From Methylobacter sp. (lineage in GTDB: Bacteria > Pseudomonadota > Gammaproteobacteria > Methylococcales > Methylomonadaceae), in the NCBI GenBank assembly GCA_004299305.1, contig SCPZ01000139.1, positions 1 to 33,236 on the forward strand: a stretch of 33,236 nt of DNA, given 5' to 3'. The first letter of the stretch is position 1; the number at the start of each line of letters is the position of its first letter. Under the pieces are notes generated by a model, which worked only from the letters and a program-made list of their open reading frames with translations, made no database searches and was not told where the DNA came from. The position numbers and the translations under genes are program-made. This document shows, one piece after another, positions 3,451 through 17,452 of this stretch.

Positions 3451-4512
3451 TTAATTGTTCATCGCCATGATTACATCGGGCTCAAATTCGGCCATCGTAT
3501 TGCCTTGATAAATGCTCATTACCTTGTCGGCATATCTCGGATCGGTTGCATAACCCGCCCGTTGCAATTCATGCATATACTGTTCCGCATTACCCACTTT
3601 CTTTAAGGCATCGCCATAACGCGGGTTATCTTTTATAAAGTCCACATAGTCCTTAAAACTTTCTTCGAATGAATCGTAGGATCTAAACCCGGCATTAACT
3701 TTTTTAGCAATACCCTGATCAAATTCCAAAGTCACCACTTTAGCTTGTTTACCCTGCCAAGCTTTATCCGCTTTAATATTAAACAAATTAAAACTGTTGC
3801 TGCCATTGCTGTTTTTTATTACAGAACGCCCCCAACCGCTTTCCAGCGCGGCTTGCGCCAAGAGAACCTTGGGTTCCACGCCCAATTCCCTGGCCGCCTG
3901 GACGGCTAAAGGATGCAAACGCCTGACAAACTCTTCCGCCGACTGTATCGGCTGTGCATGATCGGCGCTTAATGCGCCGGATTGCGCAGGAAAAACACGA
4001 TCAGCATTGAACGGAAATTCAGTCATCTCATCAAGTGGACGTCGGTCCTGAACATAAGGAGACACCTTAACTAGGCCATCATCTGCAAGCCCCTCGGTTT
4101 TATTGCTCAATTGCTGCCGATTAAGGCCATGAACCTGTTCAGAACCGTTAGCCGATATGCCCCCCGACCTGTTCAGGTAATCTTCAATACCTTGCTTATC
4201 ATGTTTAGGCTTATCGGGGCTCAATTGCTTGACGATTAAGTCAGCCAAACCGACGCCGGGCGACCCCGACAAATGCACGGCTAACTGCTGATCATACATA
4301 TCGCTATAAAACTTGCTTTGATCGCTATCCATAGCGCCGTCTGCCAGCTTTGCCGCACGCATACTTTTAAGCACATTATTTAGAAAAATCGATTCAAATT
4401 GCTTGGCGACTTCCTTCAACGCTTCCGGCGACTCTTTCCTGGCTTGGCCTTTTAATTTAGCCAAGCCATTGAAGTCGGTATAAACATCAGCATTTTGTGG
4501 TCCGTTTAACAT
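3451..4512 (-). CDS. flgJ: Flagellar rod assembly protein / peptidoglycan hydrolase FlgJ
   Basis: This is a two-domain FlgJ that caps the growing rod and cuts peptidoglycan in the periplasm so the rod can pass. The rod-cap domain lies at about residues 25-100 (KEVAKQFESIFLNNVLKSMR, then the GVGLADLIVKQL segment). A polar linker follows at about 100-190. The C-terminal glucosaminidase/muramidase domain (about 190-340) has the catalytic Glu in ALESGWG (Glu224) and a downstream FNLFNIKADKAW motif. At 353 residues it is the long, enzyme-bearing form typical of gammaproteobacteria, not the short form lacking the hydrolase. A GGAGGT ribosome site precedes the ATG. It lies between flgI and flgK. Confidence 0.95.
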   Translation of the reverse strand: MLNGPQNADVYTDFNGLAKLKGQARKESPEALKEVAKQFESIFLNNVLKSMRAAKLADGAMDSDQSKFYSDMYDQQLAVHLSGSPGVGLADLIVKQLSPDKPKHDKQGIEDYLNRSGGISANGSEQVHGLNRQQLSNKTEGLADDGLVKVSPYVQDRRPLDEMTEFPFNADRVFPAQSGALSADHAQPIQSAEEFVRRLHPLAVQAARELGVEPKVLLAQAALESGWGRSVIKNSNGSNSFNLFNIKADKAWQGKQAKVVTLEFDQGIAKKVNAGFRSYDSFEESFKDYVDFIKDNPRYGDALKKVGNAEQYMHELQRAGYATDPRYADKVMSIYQGNTMAEFEPDVIMAMNN

Positions 4513-7442: not shown

Positions 7443-7799
7443 CTAAGCCGCCTCGCGCGGTAACACCTCGCGCTCAATAGTAGGTAATGCTTTTTGTTTG
7501 GCAATGCGCAAATCATAACCTATTTGCAGGTTAAGCCAGAATTGGGCCGAAGTACCGAAATAACGCGCTAGACGCAATGCCGTTTCAGGGGTGATAGCAC
7601 GACGTTCACGCACAATGTCATTGATGCGGGTAGACGGAACTTTAAGCGCCAATGCCAACGCATTTGCAGTCATGCCAAGCGGTGCCAAAAACTCTTCGCG
7701 CAGAATTTCTCCAGGATGGATGGGTGGCAGCTTACCCAGATGGGTATCGGCCAAGTTAGAAAAGTCGAGTGTGTCCAAGTCTTCAATATGAATGGTCAT
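7443..7799 (-). CDS. higA: HigA-family antitoxin (XRE-type HTH)
   Basis: This is the antitoxin and autorepressor of a type II toxin-antitoxin pair. After an acidic N-terminal tail (IEDLDTLDF), the HPGEILREEFLAPLGMTANALA segment (about residues 28-50) starts a helix-turn-helix domain that runs to about 95, with the VPSTRINDIVRERRAITPETALRLARYFGTS pattern typical of HigA/VapI antidotes. 118 residues is slightly longer than the common 95-105. A strong AAAGGAGG ribosome site precedes the ATG. It follows the toxin gene by 12 nt, the toxin-first order characteristic of higBA. It sits between two flagellar transcription units and has no evident role in motility. Confidence 0.9.
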   Translation of the reverse strand: MTIHIEDLDTLDFSNLADTHLGKLPPIHPGEILREEFLAPLGMTANALALALKVPSTRINDIVRERRAITPETALRLARYFGTSAQFWLNLQIGYDLRIAKQKALPTIEREVLPREAA

Positions 7800-7811: not shown

Positions 7812-8093
7812 TTAGTGGTAATCAATAATTTCAACGTCATAGGCGTGGCCGTTTTCAAATCGAAAACACAAGCGCCATTGCCCATTAATACGCAAGCTAA
7901 ACAGCCCGGAACGATCACCGCGCAAGGCTTCCAGCCGGTTGCCCGGCGGCACGCGTAAATCATCAAGCCGTTCAGCCTTATCCAGCATATCCAGTTTTCG
8001 TCGCGCCACCTGAAGCACATCGGACGGAAGCTTACGTTCCCGCTCATTGGCGAACACAGCTGCTGTGGTTTTATTGGCAAATGTTTTAATCAT
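7812..8093 (-). CDS. higB: HigB-family toxin (RelE-like mRNA interferase)
   Basis: HigB proteins are ribosome-dependent mRNA nucleases neutralised by HigA. The 93-residue product starting MIKTFANKTTAAVF has the family pattern: LPSDVLQVARRKLDMLDKAERLDDLRVPPGNRLEALRGDRSGLFSLRINGQWRLCFRF, then HAYDVEIIDYH at the C-terminus. Basic residues in RLEALRGDR and the INGQWRLCF strand fit the RelE-fold active region. A longer frame with an ATG at 8126 exists, but the start at 8093 fits HigB length and homology, and the extra residues would lie over the probable operator. The predicted toxin is intact, so the module is probably functional. Confidence 0.9.
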   Translation of the reverse strand: MIKTFANKTTAAVFANERERKLPSDVLQVARRKLDMLDKAERLDDLRVPPGNRLEALRGDRSGLFSLRINGQWRLCFRFENGHAYDVEIIDYH

Positions 8094-8105
8094 GAGGATA
8101 AGAAT

Positions 8106-8136
8106 ATAACGCAATACGTTAAACATAAAGCGTTAT
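8106..8136. promoter_or_regulatory. Probable HigA operator/promoter region
   Basis: An inverted repeat ATAACGC (8106-8112) / GCGTTAT (8130-8136) lies immediately upstream of higB, with a further AACG...CGTT pair at 8108-8120 inside it. HigA antitoxins repress their own promoters through palindromes in this position. The palindrome is seen; its binding by HigA is inferred. Confidence 0.55.
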
Positions 8137-8258: not shown

Positions 8259-9002
8259 CTAACCCATTTGCATCAGCTTAGCGCCTACTGCTGAGTTTTC
8301 ATCTACGCTCTTCATAACCTTAGTTTGCAACTCGAAATTTCTCGCCAACTCAATCATCTCCACCATAGCAGAAATCGCATTCACGTTGCTGCCTTCCAAA
8401 ACGCCCTGCGCCAAGCTGACGTCAGCATTGGCTGCCACAGGTTTGCCATCTTTAGCATGTAACAAACCATCATTCAGCTTTTCCAGATTTCCCGCATCCA
8501 ACTTAACTAACTTGATCCGGCCAACCTCCACCTGAGTTGTCGCGTTGCCGGCGCCCAGCGGAATAATGCTGATAGTGCCATCACGACCTATCGTCATCTT
8601 TTCGGCAGGCTGGATAGTAATCGGCCCATCTTGCCCCAGCACTTGTAAACCCGCTCCGGTCTGTAACAAGCCTTCAGGAGTAACGCGCAGGTCACCGGCT
8701 CGCGTGTAAGCCTCTTTACCATCAGCGCCTTGAACGGCAAGATAACCCTCACCGTTAATAGCTACATCCAGATCGGCGCCTGTTGTCTGTATCGCGCCGG
8801 GGGTAAGATCCAGCCCCGGCTTTTCGTTCATTGCATAAACCCGGGTAGGATAGCCGGCCCCCGTTAAAGGCCGACTACGAAACTGCTCCAAATCCGATTT
8901 GAAACCGGTAGTTTGGGTATTCGCCATATTATTGGCGTTTACCGTTTGAGCTATCAGCGTCTGCTTAGCGCCGCTCATTGCAATATACAAACTACGATCC
9001 AT
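8259..9002 (-). CDS. flgF: Flagellar basal-body proximal rod protein
   Basis: FlgF is a rod subunit exported by the flagellar secretion system. The N-terminus MDRSLYIAMSGAKQTLIAQTVNANNMANTQTTGFKSDLEQFRS and the C-terminus SNVNAISAMVEMIELARNFELQTKVMKSVDENSAVG are standard FlgF. 247 residues is the usual size. An AGGGGAG ribosome site precedes the ATG. It is the last gene of the flgB-F unit and is followed by a clear terminator. Confidence 0.96.
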   Translation of the reverse strand: MDRSLYIAMSGAKQTLIAQTVNANNMANTQTTGFKSDLEQFRSRPLTGAGYPTRVYAMNEKPGLDLTPGAIQTTGADLDVAINGEGYLAVQGADGKEAYTRAGDLRVTPEGLLQTGAGLQVLGQDGPITIQPAEKMTIGRDGTISIIPLGAGNATTQVEVGRIKLVKLDAGNLEKLNDGLLHAKDGKPVAANADVSLAQGVLEGSNVNAISAMVEMIELARNFELQTKVMKSVDENSAVGAKLMQMG

Positions 9003-9048: not shown

Positions 9049-11295
9049 CTATGCACGCAGAATAGTTTCTACCAAGGTTTTTTCGGTGGTGATGGTTTGC
9101 GAGTTAGCTTGGTAAGCCTGCTGCGCAACAATCAACTTAACCAACTGCTCGGATAAATCCACGTTGGACCCTTCCAAAGCCGCAGATTGAATCCCCCCGA
9201 AATTATTATCGCCGGCCGCACCGTAAATAGGCGCCCCAGAGTCTGACGTCTTACCCCAGGTTGTATCGCCTAACTTAGCCAACGCTTGATTACTCTGAAA
9301 CCGTGCCAATGCCACCTGGCCTAATACCTTGGAGCCGCCATTAGTGTACCTGGCAAACACCACGCCGGTGTCATCAACATCAATGCCGGACAAATTACCG
9401 GTAGGCAAACCATCTTGACCTGAGGCCTCAATACTAAAAGGCTTGGTAAACTGGGTACTCCCGGTAAAATCTATATCAAACGCCATTGGATTAACACTTG
9501 AGCTAGGATTAGTAAGCCCTAAATCAATAGACCCAAAATCCACCTTGGTCGTTTTCGCGGGGCCGGCAGCGGTAGCGGCAGCGTTAATCGCAACGTTATA
9601 ATTATTAGCCGCTGCCTGCGCATTAACCGCTTCAGAGGCCGCAACATTCGCAAGCAGCGCAGCAGCATCGGCTGTAGCAGCATCAACAACAGCCGCTGCT
9701 GCATCGGCATACGCAACGGCAGCTTTTTGCGCAGTAGCGGCAGCCGTTTTAAGCGCCTCTGCCGCACCTGCGGCAACAGGAGAGCTATTGGGAACGGAAG
9801 CTGAAGCGGCAAAAGCATCGGCGGCCGCCTTGGCAGACCTGGCCTGGGCAAGAGCCGCTTGCGCAACGCTGGAGGTGGCGGTGGCAACGGCAGTGTTATA
9901 ACTGTTGCGCGCATTCTCGGCAAGAACCGCGTCAGAAGCCGCTTTAGCGGCGTCGGCAGCAGCTTGAGAACCATTAGCGGGAGTAGGATCGGCTGCATAA
10001 TTAGCAGCCGATCCAGAAGCAGTAGTGGCGGATTCAGATGCGGTAGTTGCGGCCGCCGCCCAGGCTAGAGCAAGATTTGCTGCAGTCGGAATAGCATTGG
10101 CAGCCGAAACTGTCGCCGCAGATGCTGCGGCAGTGGCGGCGCTAGAGTCGGCCACACTTGCAAGATCTGCGGCAGCCTGAGCCTGAAGCGGGTCAATCGC
10201 CGCAGCCGCAGCCGCAGCCGCAGCCGCAGCCGTATCCGTTTTTGCCAGTGCTGAATTGTCTGCGGCTGTGTTTGCTTCGTTTGGAAAGGCTGGATCATTT
10301 GAATTTAGTGGCTGAGTAAGTGCGGCAGCCGCATAGATTGGAGACACCCCCGTTGCCGTAGCAGATGCAGTAGCCGTACCGGCAACCGCTGTTTCTCCTG
10401 CCGTCACAACCGCCGCAGAAACAGCGGTTGCCGCATGAACACCGACCTCGCTAAGCACTCCTGCCGAAGTAAAAATCATCGGTATGGGTAATCCGGGCGT
10501 ATTCACTGTTGCCGCCACTGTTGATGCCGGCGCAGCTAACGGCGGTACAGCCTGCCCCCCCGTTGTAATGCCGAAATTATCGAGAAATAAATAAGCATTC
10601 CATACATTAGCTACCGGTGTTTTTACATAATAGGTTGATGCGATATGCGCATTACCCTGAGTATCATAAGTCGTGATCGATGTTGTATTGTTATAGGATG
10701 CAGGATTGGTAGGATCGAATGTTGAAACCGTCGGTACATTGGCCCCCCCGTTGATATTCAATTTCAGGTCGATATTCCCGGTAGCGGCGGGCAAGCCCAG
10801 GGAGGTATCAATAGTCAGCGGCCTAAAAACACCGACACTAAAACCCTCGGCAGCGGTAGTGCCGTTAGCGGCAAACGCTAGTAAATACTGGCCCTGATCG
10901 TTAATCACATTGCCGGTATTGTCTAATTGGAAAGCGCCGTTGCGGGTATAGGCCGTGGGTATTGAAGGATCCACGGCTGCTGTCGGATTTTTAGGATCAG
11001 GAAGATTCACCTTGTCCGCCAATGTAAAAAAACCGTTGCCCCGGATTGCAAGATCAAGGCTGTTTTGGGTCGACTCGATGTTGCCATCTTTAAATTGCTG
11101 CGCCACTTCCGTAACCCTGACTCCAGCGCCTGTTTGAATCTTATTGTTTCCGCCGATACTGGACGCATACACGTCTGCAAACTCCGCCCGTGATTCTTTA
11201 AAACCGGTCGTTTGCGAGTTGGCAATGTTATTGCCGGTTACTTGTAAATTCGTTGATGAGGCTTTTAAGCCACTTAATGCTGTTGCGAAACTCAT
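9049..11295 (-). CDS. flgE: Flagellar hook protein with large alanine-rich insertion
   Basis: FlgE is the structural subunit of the flagellar hook. The start is the ATG at 11295, preceded by a GGGGGTG ribosome site and giving MSFATALSGLKASSTNLQVTG; an in-frame ATG 14 codons upstream overlaps flgD and gives a poor N-terminus. Residues 1-285 and about 580-748 match FlgE, including SGIDVDDTGVVFARYTNG, NVDLSEQLVKLIVAQQAYQ and a C-terminal ETILRA. Between them lies a stretch of about 295 residues (about 286-580) made mostly of Ala with Ser, Thr, Asp, Asn and Lys, including an uninterrupted run of 11 Ala. At 748 residues the protein is nearly double the roughly 400 of enterobacterial FlgE. The insertion falls in the surface-exposed central domain. 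The reading frame is open throughout, so it appears functional. Confidence 0.95.
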   Translation of the reverse strand: MSFATALSGLKASSTNLQVTGNNIANSQTTGFKESRAEFADVYASSIGGNNKIQTGAGVRVTEVAQQFKDGNIESTQNSLDLAIRGNGFFTLADKVNLPDPKNPTAAVDPSIPTAYTRNGAFQLDNTGNVINDQGQYLLAFAANGTTAAEGFSVGVFRPLTIDTSLGLPAATGNIDLKLNINGGANVPTVSTFDPTNPASYNNTTSITTYDTQGNAHIASTYYVKTPVANVWNAYLFLDNFGITTGGQAVPPLAAPASTVAATVNTPGLPIPMIFTSAGVLSEVGVHAATAVSAAVVTAGETAVAGTATASATATGVSPIYAAAALTQPLNSNDPAFPNEANTAADNSALAKTDTAAAAAAAAAAAIDPLQAQAAADLASVADSSAATAAASAATVSAANAIPTAANLALAWAAAATTASESATTASGSAANYAADPTPANGSQAAADAAKAASDAVLAENARNSYNTAVATATSSVAQAALAQARSAKAAADAFAASASVPNSSPVAAGAAEALKTAAATAQKAAVAYADAAAAVVDAATADAAALLANVAASEAVNAQAAANNYNVAINAAATAAGPAKTTKVDFGSIDLGLTNPSSSVNPMAFDIDFTGSTQFTKPFSIEASGQDGLPTGNLSGIDVDDTGVVFARYTNGGSKVLGQVALARFQSNQALAKLGDTTWGKTSDSGAPIYGAAGDNNFGGIQSAALEGSNVDLSEQLVKLIVAQQAYQANSQTITTEKTLVETILRA
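10198..10232. repeat. Hexanucleotide microsatellite (GCAGCC)n inside flgE
   Basis: About five tandem copies of CGCAGC-type hexamers encode the uninterrupted alanine run of FlgE. Because the unit is six bases, changes in copy number would add or remove two Ala without breaking the frame. Confidence 0.85.
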
Positions 11296-11296
11296 G

Positions 11297-11989
11297 TTAC
11301 ACCCCCAAAATTTGTTTAATTTTATTAAAATCAACACTGTCCAAACCGGTCAGGTTAACCTTTAAACCATTTGCGCCACTGCCCATGGATACACTATCGA
11401 CTCGCGAATTAATATCCGTTTCCATCCCAGTGTTTTTCCCATCGATATAAGCTGTCGCGTCAATTTTATATACGCCCGGACTAGCCATTACCCCATTTTC
11501 ATTCAGGCCATCCCAGACAAAAGGCATTGTTCCTGCACCATGAGCGCCCAACTCCATATTTCTTACGATTTCACCGGTAGTTGCATCGGTTACCGACACA
11601 TTAACGCTGGTTGCGGTATCCGATACATTGATATTGCCCGTTATCTCCCCCCCGACGTCCAACAAGCCCTTCGACCCCGGAGCCAAGACATTCCGCCCTA
11701 CTAAACTCGTTGCCTGCAATGCCTGACTGGAAGTAATTGCACCGGCAAAATCACCAAATGACTTTTGTAAATCCTGAATTCCCGATACCGTTCCAAACTG
11801 CGCTATTTGCGTCAAAAATTGGCCGTTTTCCATCGGGCTTGATGGGTCCTGGTGAGTCATCTGCGTGGTCATTAACTTTAAAAACTGCTCCTGACCTAAT
11901 GACGTTTTTTTAGGCGTTGTCGTCGCCGTCTCCGATTTGGGTACTACAGTGTATTTACTGTAGTCATTTATTGCATTTGCTATAGCCAT
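11297..11989 (-). CDS. flgD: Flagellar hook assembly (cap) protein
   Basis: FlgD forms the temporary cap under which hook subunits polymerise. The N-terminal region (about residues 30-90) has the conserved LGQEQFLKLMTTQMTHQDPSSPMENGQFLTQIAQF block. The C-terminal half has the FLIG-like/Ig-type strands, including the VWDGLNENG motif near residues 157-165. 230 residues is normal. An AAGGGG ribosome site precedes the start. The flgE ATG follows its stop by 1 nt, indicating translational coupling of cap and hook protein. Confidence 0.96.
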   Translation of the reverse strand: MAIANAINDYSKYTVVPKSETATTTPKKTSLGQEQFLKLMTTQMTHQDPSSPMENGQFLTQIAQFGTVSGIQDLQKSFGDFAGAITSSQALQATSLVGRNVLAPGSKGLLDVGGEITGNINVSDTATSVNVSVTDATTGEIVRNMELGAHGAGTMPFVWDGLNENGVMASPGVYKIDATAYIDGKNTGMETDINSRVDSVSMGSGANGLKVNLTGLDSVDFNKIKQILGV

Positions 11990-16560: not shown

Positions 16561-16604
16561 CCAATTAAATATCTTTCAGCCAGTAATGACCATAAGCGGG
16601 CATG

Positions 16605-17452
16605 AGTGCGTGTTTTAAAAGTAGCCAGTACCTGAAAAAATTTGAAAAATGGCAAATTTTTTTTGCCATGTCCAAACGAAAACGCCCTAAACGCTACCCG
16701 ACCGATTTAAACGCCCGTAAATGGAATTTGATCCGTGCACTGTTACCAGCAGCCTTGCCCGGTGGTCGACCAAGGCAAGTAAATCTTCGCAAGGTGATCA
16801 ATGCCATTTTCTATATCGCCCGGAGTGGCTGCGCTTGGCGCTTGTTACCGATGGACTACTTTCCGCCGCATCAAACGGTCTACGGGTATTTTCGGCGTTG
16901 GACCAAAGACGGCACATGGGAGAGGATTCACGATACGCTACGAGCTGATGTTCGACGAAAAGCGGGACGACATAAGCACCCTACAGCGGGAAGCATAGAT
17001 AGCCAAAGTGTTAAAACAACGGCTTTAGCGGACATCAAAGGTTATGATACCGCCAAGTGTATCCAAGGACGCAAGCGGCATATCCTTGTCGATACCTTGG
17101 GACTGATCATGGTAACAGCTGCTAATGTACCCGAGCGGGAAGGAGCGAAGCTTATTTTGCAATCACTGACGGGGAGCTGCAAAAAAATACGCCGCATTTG
17201 GGTAGACGGGGGATACAACGGTAAAGCATTCACCGCTTGGGTTGCTGAATGCTTCCGTATAATCCGGGCCGTCGTACTTCGCCCTCAGGGGACTTCAGGG
17301 TTTAAATTATTGCCCCGCCGCTGGGTTGTGGAACGGACCTTTGCTTGGCTTTATCGTTATCGCCGTTAAGGCATTTATCCATATCGTCATGATTAATTTA
17401 ATGATAAACAGGCTGGCTCGGGCTTAACCTGAGACCTTTTGAGACACGCACT
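16605..17452 (+). mobile_element. Degraded IS5-family insertion sequence, about 848 bp
   Basis: The terminal inverted repeats are AGTGCGTGTTTTAAAAG at the left (16605-16621) and, on the opposite strand, AGTGCGTGTCTCAAAAG at the right (17436-17452), 15 of 17 matching. One transposase gene lies between them. The immediate flanks (TGA at the left, TTA at the right if the ends are trimmed by one base) do not form a clear target duplication. The transposase gene carries an internal deletion near its end, so the copy is probably immobile. Confidence 0.8.
16668..17369 (+). pseudogene. IS5-family DDE transposase, C-terminally disrupted
   Basis: The ATG at 16668 gives MSKRKRPKRYPTDLN and 233 residues; an upstream in-frame ATG at 16602 lies in the terminal repeat and is unlikely. 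The N-terminal DUF4096-like part (WNLIRALLPAALPGGRPR, then FYIARSGCAWRLLP) is typical of IS5 relatives. The catalytic triad is present: Asp111 (GSIDSQSVKT), Asp180 (WVDGGYNG) and Glu222 (VVERTFAW). Translation stops at WLYRYRR, where the family continues with LSKDYE and about 30 more residues. The missing end is still in the DNA in another frame: from about 17372 it reads AFIHIVMINLMINRLARA then stop. So a deletion of a few tens of bases removed about a dozen codons and shifted the frame. Confidence 0.85.

Follow-up and report, generated by a model that had tools for sequence, protein, structure and literature searches.

The hook protein FlgE encoded in the window (the whole 33,236-nucleotide stretch of Methylobacter sp. 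DNA analysed here) carries an alanine-rich insert of about 295 residues that contains two tandem copies of a module of about 105 residues. In our reading, to which we give a probability of roughly 60%, the insert is an extra outer hook domain, grown from domain D2 out of repeated alanine-cored helical units, that widens the hook and may brace it. The insert is real, as are its internal repeat, a series of length steps among relatives, the constraint on its coding sequence and its occurrence within FlgE only in the genomes searched.

A single open frame runs through the whole of flgE, insert included, starting at an ATG at position 11295; a GTG further upstream would make a protein of 762 residues. 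Three Pfam families (FlgE_D2, LlgE_F_G_D1 and Flg_bbr_C) are matched above their curated cut-offs, and the N-terminal Flg_bb_rod family is absent from the Pfam matches of this protein. The FlgE_D2 match, the only one in the organism's own genome (a 4.49-Mb draft assembly of 144 contigs, of which the window is contig 19), covers residues 180-313 and ends at position 96 of the 142 in the profile, and so stops just within the insert. Both ends of the protein are ordinary FlgE. For alignment of the FlgE core to PDB structures the insert-free relative L037 was used, of which residues 1-454 of 455 align to Salmonella FlgE (6jzt) with an E-value of 3.7e-63. The features are collected in Table 1.

Table 1. 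Features of flgE and its immediate neighbours, in window coordinates.
Feature	Position	Strand	Basis or remark
flgD, hook cap, directly upstream of flgE	11297..11989	minus	Pfam FlgD, FlgD_ig, FLgD_tudor
flgE, hook protein	9049..11295	minus	748 aa (with stop); Pfam FlgE_D2, Flg_bbr_C, LlgE_F_G_D1
N-terminal core (D0, D1 and the start of D2), residues 1-284	10444..11295	minus	Alignment with insert-free FlgE
Ala-rich insert, residues 285-581, placed within D2	9553..10443	minus	Boundaries uncertain by 1-2 residues
N-terminal part of insert, residues 285-369 (85 residues)	10189..10443	minus	Proposed ascending segments; predicted helix 286-315
Perfect 6-base tandem array coding poly-Ala run (residues 356-366)	10199..10232	minus	
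Module 1, residues 370-476, helices A1, B1, C1	9868..10188	minus	More divergent copy; profile matches
Predicted continuous helix C1-A2, residues 442-499 (439-499 in insert model)	9799..9972	minus	AlphaFold2
Module 2, residues 477-576, helices A2, B2, C2	9568..9867	minus	Profile matches
C-terminal core (remainder of D2, then D1 and D0), residues 582-748	9052..9552	minus	Pfam and alignment
flgF, directly downstream of flgE	8259..9002	minus	Named by position and Pfam FlgE/F/G families

The original prediction had placed an alanine-rich insertion of about 295 residues at positions 9555-10440, which is correct give or take one or two residues; six of the 21 Methylobacter FlgE proteins that are complete do not have the stretch. 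Alanine accounts for 129 of the 297 insert residues (~43%) and cysteine for none. Residues 286-581 are 43.6% Ala, 8.8% Thr and 8.4% Ser, and the rest of FlgE is 11.3% Ala. The term "low-complexity" originally applied to the segment fits its Ala-dominated composition, but not the two tandem module copies inside it. All four Ala codons are used (GCT 38, GCG 34, GCC 34, GCA 23), and codon slippage was rejected on this ground; a simple tandem DNA repeat was likewise rejected, as Tandem Repeats Finder (TRF) reports only three short arrays in the window flgE. Across eight pairs of proteins, dN/dS is 0.16-0.56 in the insert and 0.04-0.19 in the core, so that the insert is constrained, more loosely than the core. 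The use of all four codons together with these dN/dS values argues that the insert is neither an artefact nor a product of slippage.

The internal repeat is detectable in the window protein itself. Segments 367-476 and 477-581 align with a score of 126 (z 4.1), which none of 500 shuffled pairs reached, the best scoring 125; the shuffles preserve composition, not helical periodicity. The repeat is plainer in L041, the 1024-residue FlgE of genome G013, whose gene contains three 237-base DNA copies spaced 324 and 306 bases apart, along with a 93-base duplication and short arrays (TRF). Four modules, A to D, are present in that protein. Pairwise scores among B, C and D lie 10-16 SD above shuffles, with 5.8 SD for A and B and 4.5 SD for A and D. 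Module 2 of the window resembles L041 modules B, C and D (z 10.1, 5.7 and 15.3) and not module A (z -0.2), and module 1 of the window scores z 3.9-6.1 against all four.

A profile of these six modules (two from the window, four from L041) was run on 51 FlgE proteins and found one full-length copy in each of eight FlgE of about 600 residues, two in L003 and one in L082, in addition to its own six source modules; the best score among 24 x 50 proteins with shuffled inserts, in which helical periodicity is not kept, was -2.2 bits. A profile from L041 alone finds window module 1 at E 0.0039 and module 2 at 6e-6. When the profile is made instead from the eight single modules, module 2 of the window is found at 2.6e-14 and module 1 weakly, at 0.095, along with both L003 modules, three of the four in L041 and one in L082 (1.3e-7). 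Among the twelve genus FlgE of about 600 residues, L012 matched the module profiles weakly, and L013, L014 and L019 had no module match in the profile searches. An earlier alignment (A3), which set the N-terminal segment of one-module relatives against helices B1-C1 of module 1, was replaced by one in which the flanks were kept (A4). Searched at E<=0.001, the organism's own genome has the module in FlgE and nowhere else. In 251 genomes of the order, all 13 module matches at E<=1e-8, from eight genomes, lie within FlgE, six of them being the profile's own source sequences.

Beyond the edge of FlgE_D2, database searches agree with the original description of the insert as unlike any known FlgE domain. 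Pfam searched up to E 10 returns the three flagellar families alone and nothing further for the insert, the PHROGs scan has no match for it, and no PDB sequence matches the module profile up to E 1. A phage origin was also considered and rejected, both the PHROGs and the viral-contig scans being empty (no relatives confirmed among 600 pattern matches).

The insert changes length in whole steps within the genus. Of 23 Methylobacter genomes searched, 22 matched and 21 yielded a complete FlgE (G008 had no match, and G018 only a 152-residue frame). Six of these proteins are 453-462 residues long and lack the insert, twelve are 596-616, two are 745 and 748, and one is 1024. Alignment with the nearest relatives, the check originally proposed, therefore shows an insert common to 15 of the 21. 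Its size is 145-165, 295, 298 or 574 residues in the 14 of these 15 proteins in which the edges were located; the exact site edges were found by script in four of the six insert-free proteins. A second two-module FlgE (L003, in G019) is 68% identical to the window FlgE over residues 1-748. In 17 genus proteins (six with zero modules, eight with one, two with two and one with four; L012, L013, L014 and L019 omitted), FlgE length equals 457.4 + 142.7 x modules, with a residual SD of 3.7 residues. Counting those four as one-module proteins gives a slope of 142.8 and a maximum residual of 14. A one-module FlgE is also what a culturable M. tundripaludum strain (L033) has. The ladder beyond one step comprises three genomes.

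Each step is larger than the module. The N-terminal part of the insert measures 42-51 residues in the eight one-module relatives, 85 in the window, 89 in L003 and 142 in the four-module L041, with a fitted slope of 34 residues per module. Each step of about 143 residues is thus one module of about 105 residues plus an N-terminal segment of about 34. The suggestion that the Ala segment grew by repeat expansion is right as to the repetition, but the growth proceeds by whole steps of about 143 residues and involves no expansion of Ala codons. A P-x-x-Y linker motif was considered as a counter of storeys and dropped, since two of the one-module proteins also have one occurrence of the pattern and the window has two.

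The insert had been described as probably helical, and AlphaFold2 likewise predicts helices. A model of the whole protein built from 12 sequences gives the helices 286-315, 318-326, 343-366, 370-381, 386-400, 402-435, 442-499, 506-534 and 539-577, but its core is badly modelled (mean pLDDT 45.4, pTM 0.40). Block pLDDT in this model is 85-88 over residues 291-310 and 83-93 over 481-570, except for 71 at 501-510. A second model, of the insert with short flanks (343 residues, 10 rows; mean pLDDT 64.4, pTM 0.53), gives helices at 277-315, 354-391, 398-435, 439-499, 506-534 and 539-576, with pLDDT 67-88 over 402-581. Long helices, and a helix of about 60 residues joining modules 1 and 2, are thus predicted with modest confidence in both models; a second climbing helix is predicted at 343-366 in the whole-protein model and is missing from the insert model. 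The original prediction allowed that the segment might have a known fold, but Foldseek searches with the insert model, itself of modest confidence, gave seven matches, none with E below 6. With the whole model, hook proteins ranked highest, one alone with E below 0.001.

Alanine-rich coiled coils make helix contacts lined with Ala, and spectrin repeats offer a precedent for the predicted architecture: they are about 105 residues long, with three helices and a conserved Trp, and helix C of one repeat continues into helix A of the next. The secondary structure predicted for the modules is compatible with such a repeat, in which about 106 residues form three helices and helix C runs on as the next helix A. 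However, module 2 lacks Trp, Pfam gives no spectrin match for the insert at E-values up to 10, and no fold match is significant. In an alignment of 17 modules, near-invariant Ala residues lie 3-4 apart in helices B and C, a spacing that would suit heptad core positions of an alanine-rich antiparallel coiled coil but is not significant in helix A. Permutation p-values for Ala periodicity at periods of 3.4-3.7, uncorrected for the number of tests, are 0.002 for B, 0.03 for C and 0.45 for A; at exactly 3.5 residues they are 0.018, 0.17 and 0.25. For the periodicity of polar positions they are 0.0035, 0.003 and 0.05, respectively.

The original prediction had placed the insertion in the central domain, and alignment through L037, across a variable loop, indeed puts it at about residues 240-247 of Salmonella FlgE. 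Salmonella D2 comprises residues 144-284 (PMC6769732), so that by alignment the insert lies inside D2, the outermost Salmonella domain. Extra outer domains inserted in D2 occur in other hooks as well. In Campylobacter jejuni, FlgE (865 residues) has two large ones, D3 and D4 (PMC5069557, PMC5097172), and the hook is 28 nm wide, compared with 18 nm in Salmonella (PMC5097172, PMC5069557); deletion of D3/D4 left very poor motility, with mostly short stubs and broken flagella (PMC5097172). Caulobacter crescentus FlgE (591 residues) bears an extra D3 on D2, in almost the same position as in Campylobacter, and its hook is likewise wider, at 24.5 nm (PMC5069557). The domains themselves differ, however, from the Methylobacter insert. 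Those of Campylobacter are described as alpha/beta and beta domains, with no modular repeats in that description, and that of Caulobacter as a single segment forming a half-barrel of beta strands with short helices (PMC5069557). A Campylobacter/Salmonella chimera had D3/D4 placed at Salmonella residues 167/168 (PMC5069557); compared with about 240-247 here, this looks like another D2 loop. No sequence match, and with a model of modest confidence no fold match, to the Campylobacter and Caulobacter domains was found for the Methylobacter insert, and its aligned site differs from 167/168. The giant flagellins of Bermanella and Oleibacter likewise have an outer part enlarged by internal duplication and insertion, and electron microscopy shows a thicker filament (PMC6248924). 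The likeness is one of description; they differ in belonging to the filament and in having one duplication (PMC6248924).

We propose that the chain would leave D2, climb via the N-terminal segments and come back down along the tandem modules into D2, each helix C running on without a break as helix A of the following module. The window FlgE would then represent two steps. The main reason for this reading is that the N-terminal part grows with the modules: if the chain is to return to the root that it left, each added three-helix layer would call for one extra climbing segment. As the climbing and descending parts would grow together, further steps would leave both ends in place at the D2 root. 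An alpha-helix rises 0.15 nm per residue, and from predicted helices of 29-39 residues the height of a layer would be about 4-6 nm. About 120 copies of FlgE form a hook (PMC5069557); the inserts might therefore surround it with helical rods, which would make it wider and give its subunits further contacts, an effect that D3/D4, though unrelated, have in Campylobacter. The climb-and-descend path, the rod geometry and a wider or stiffer hook are what we infer; by analogy with Campylobacter D3/D4 and the giant flagellins, the most likely effect of the insert would be to widen and brace the hook. More tentatively, hook thickness in the genus may itself be stepwise, with four-helix storeys (a climbing helix plus a module) gained or lost whole (0, 1, 2, 4) and with outer radius and bending stiffness increasing at each storey, by up to about 4-6 nm. 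In L041, the 93-base tandem duplication (positions 4042-4227), separate from the 237-base copies, lies in the N-terminal part of the insert and apparently doubles a climbing segment.

A tree of the FlgE core (L080, L082 and L083 omitted) bears on the history of these steps. The four-module FlgE falls among one-module proteins (node support 71-93). The window protein groups with two one-module proteins (support 100), and the other two-module protein is next to another pair of one-module proteins (95); forms that lack the insert are scattered, with weak support (28-38) at the deep nodes. This interleaving of long and short forms suggests that copy number probably changed repeatedly, whether by gain, by loss or by recombination. 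A tree of the modules themselves clusters module 1 of the window with the first module of L003 (support 78), and one doubling may therefore predate the species split or have been shared by recombination.

Several other explanations of the insert deserve consideration. An artefact of assembly or sequencing, a possibility raised by the original prediction and consistent with a draft genome of 144 contigs, has a negligible probability: relatives bear homologous inserts, in 15 of the 21 complete genus FlgE and including the two-module protein of G019, and a single open frame runs throughout flgE. It is improbable that the insert is instead a disordered, low-complexity brush of Ala, Ser and Thr that shields the hook or is merely tolerated, its repeats being left over from duplication. 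Its composition (44% Ala, 17% Ser plus Thr), its faster evolution relative to the core (dN/dS 0.16-0.56 against 0.04-0.19) and an AlphaFold pLDDT below 50 for residues 328-407 speak for such a brush. However, helices B and C have conserved periodic positions, the helices of module 2 are confidently predicted, full-length module matches occur in proteins outside the profile, and length changes in whole steps.

It may be that the insert is a display scaffold, whose surface, rich in Ser and Thr, carries glycans or attaches to mucus, partner cells or other surfaces, with copy number altering adhesion or escape from phages and grazers, not mechanics. Copy-number differences are common in surface-exposed features, and here the number varies between close species; in Campylobacter, the variable central regions of FlgE have been ascribed to antigenic variation (PMC5097172). 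No adhesin or phage family was matched in Pfam or PHROGs, however, and the viral-contig scan confirmed none of 600 pattern matches as relatives; we regard this explanation as unlikely. A neutral ratchet, in which in-frame duplications in an outer loop do no harm to hook assembly and drift up and down in number, would account for the six complete genus FlgE that have no insert and for the interleaving of long and short forms on the core tree. It too seems an unlikely account, as the insert is under constraint by dN/dS and its periodic pattern is conserved, and as the N-terminal part lengthens along with module number, which would be unexpected from independent duplications.

The hook is a universal joint, and its stiffness must suit the motor and the style of swimming. 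Close relatives with 0, 1, 2 or 4 modules form a natural dose series on the role of the hook exterior; the solved hooks with extra FlgE domains considered here (Campylobacter and Caulobacter) each have a different, fixed one. The series also shows how a protein that has to be exported unfolded, and to assemble nonetheless, can acquire a large domain. Hypervariable outer domains of FlgE are already known (PMC5069557), and a methanotroph proteome includes FlgE (PMC13274458); among the matches listed, no published report of such a FlgE module was found in the open literature. What is new is the predicted Ala-cored helical module, its site elsewhere in D2 and the copy-number series within one genus.

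Beyond the genus, 86 of 151 genomes of the family matched at E<=1e-40, and most FlgE frames among the matches listed are about 420-500 residues long. Long FlgE recur in a few other genera of the family, chiefly g14, where four proteins (L073, L075, L079 and L080) of 588-729 residues have inserts that look helical by eye, with no more than 32-34 Ala per 100 residues. These inserts have no match to the module profile, and may possibly represent an independent helical outer domain. L081 (G132, genus g3), a FlgE of 661 residues, has an Ala-rich insert (48 Ala in 100 residues) with no match to the module profile; L087, from the same branch, is 461 residues long. L082 (G160, genus g13) has one module copy, found at E 1.3e-7 with a profile that excludes L082. 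The Ala-rich stretch of both L081 and L082 precedes the F-x-S-x-G-x-L strand, whereas the Methylobacter insert comes after it, which places theirs in an adjacent loop of D2. For the L082 match, the possible origins are an old relative at a different site, a moved module or convergence.

Among 281 class-level genomes, at least 12 FlgE frames of other Gammaproteobacteria reach 600 residues. Those twelve were examined with three shorter frames; 11 of the 12 are 590-765 residues long, and L107 (frame 865), which is 422 residues from its first Met, was left unjudged. The middle parts of the 15 proteins are 7-17% Ala, peaking locally at 30 per 100. The idea that the Ala module is a common feature of long FlgE was rejected, as none of the 15 scored above the module-profile limits (0 and 5 bits).

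In the window, the rod-hook genes follow the order flgD, flgE, flgF, flgG on the minus strand, with flgF and flgG named by position. Between these last two, on the same strand, lie two genes: that at 7812-8126 encodes a HigB-like toxin, and that at 7443-7799 a helix-turn-helix protein, presumably the antitoxin. The flgF-flgG spacing looks short in G019, and the pair therefore appears to have been inserted in the window operon. An IS4/5-family transposase (Pfam DUF4096 and DDE_Tnp_1) is encoded near the flagellar cluster, on the plus strand at 16602-17369.
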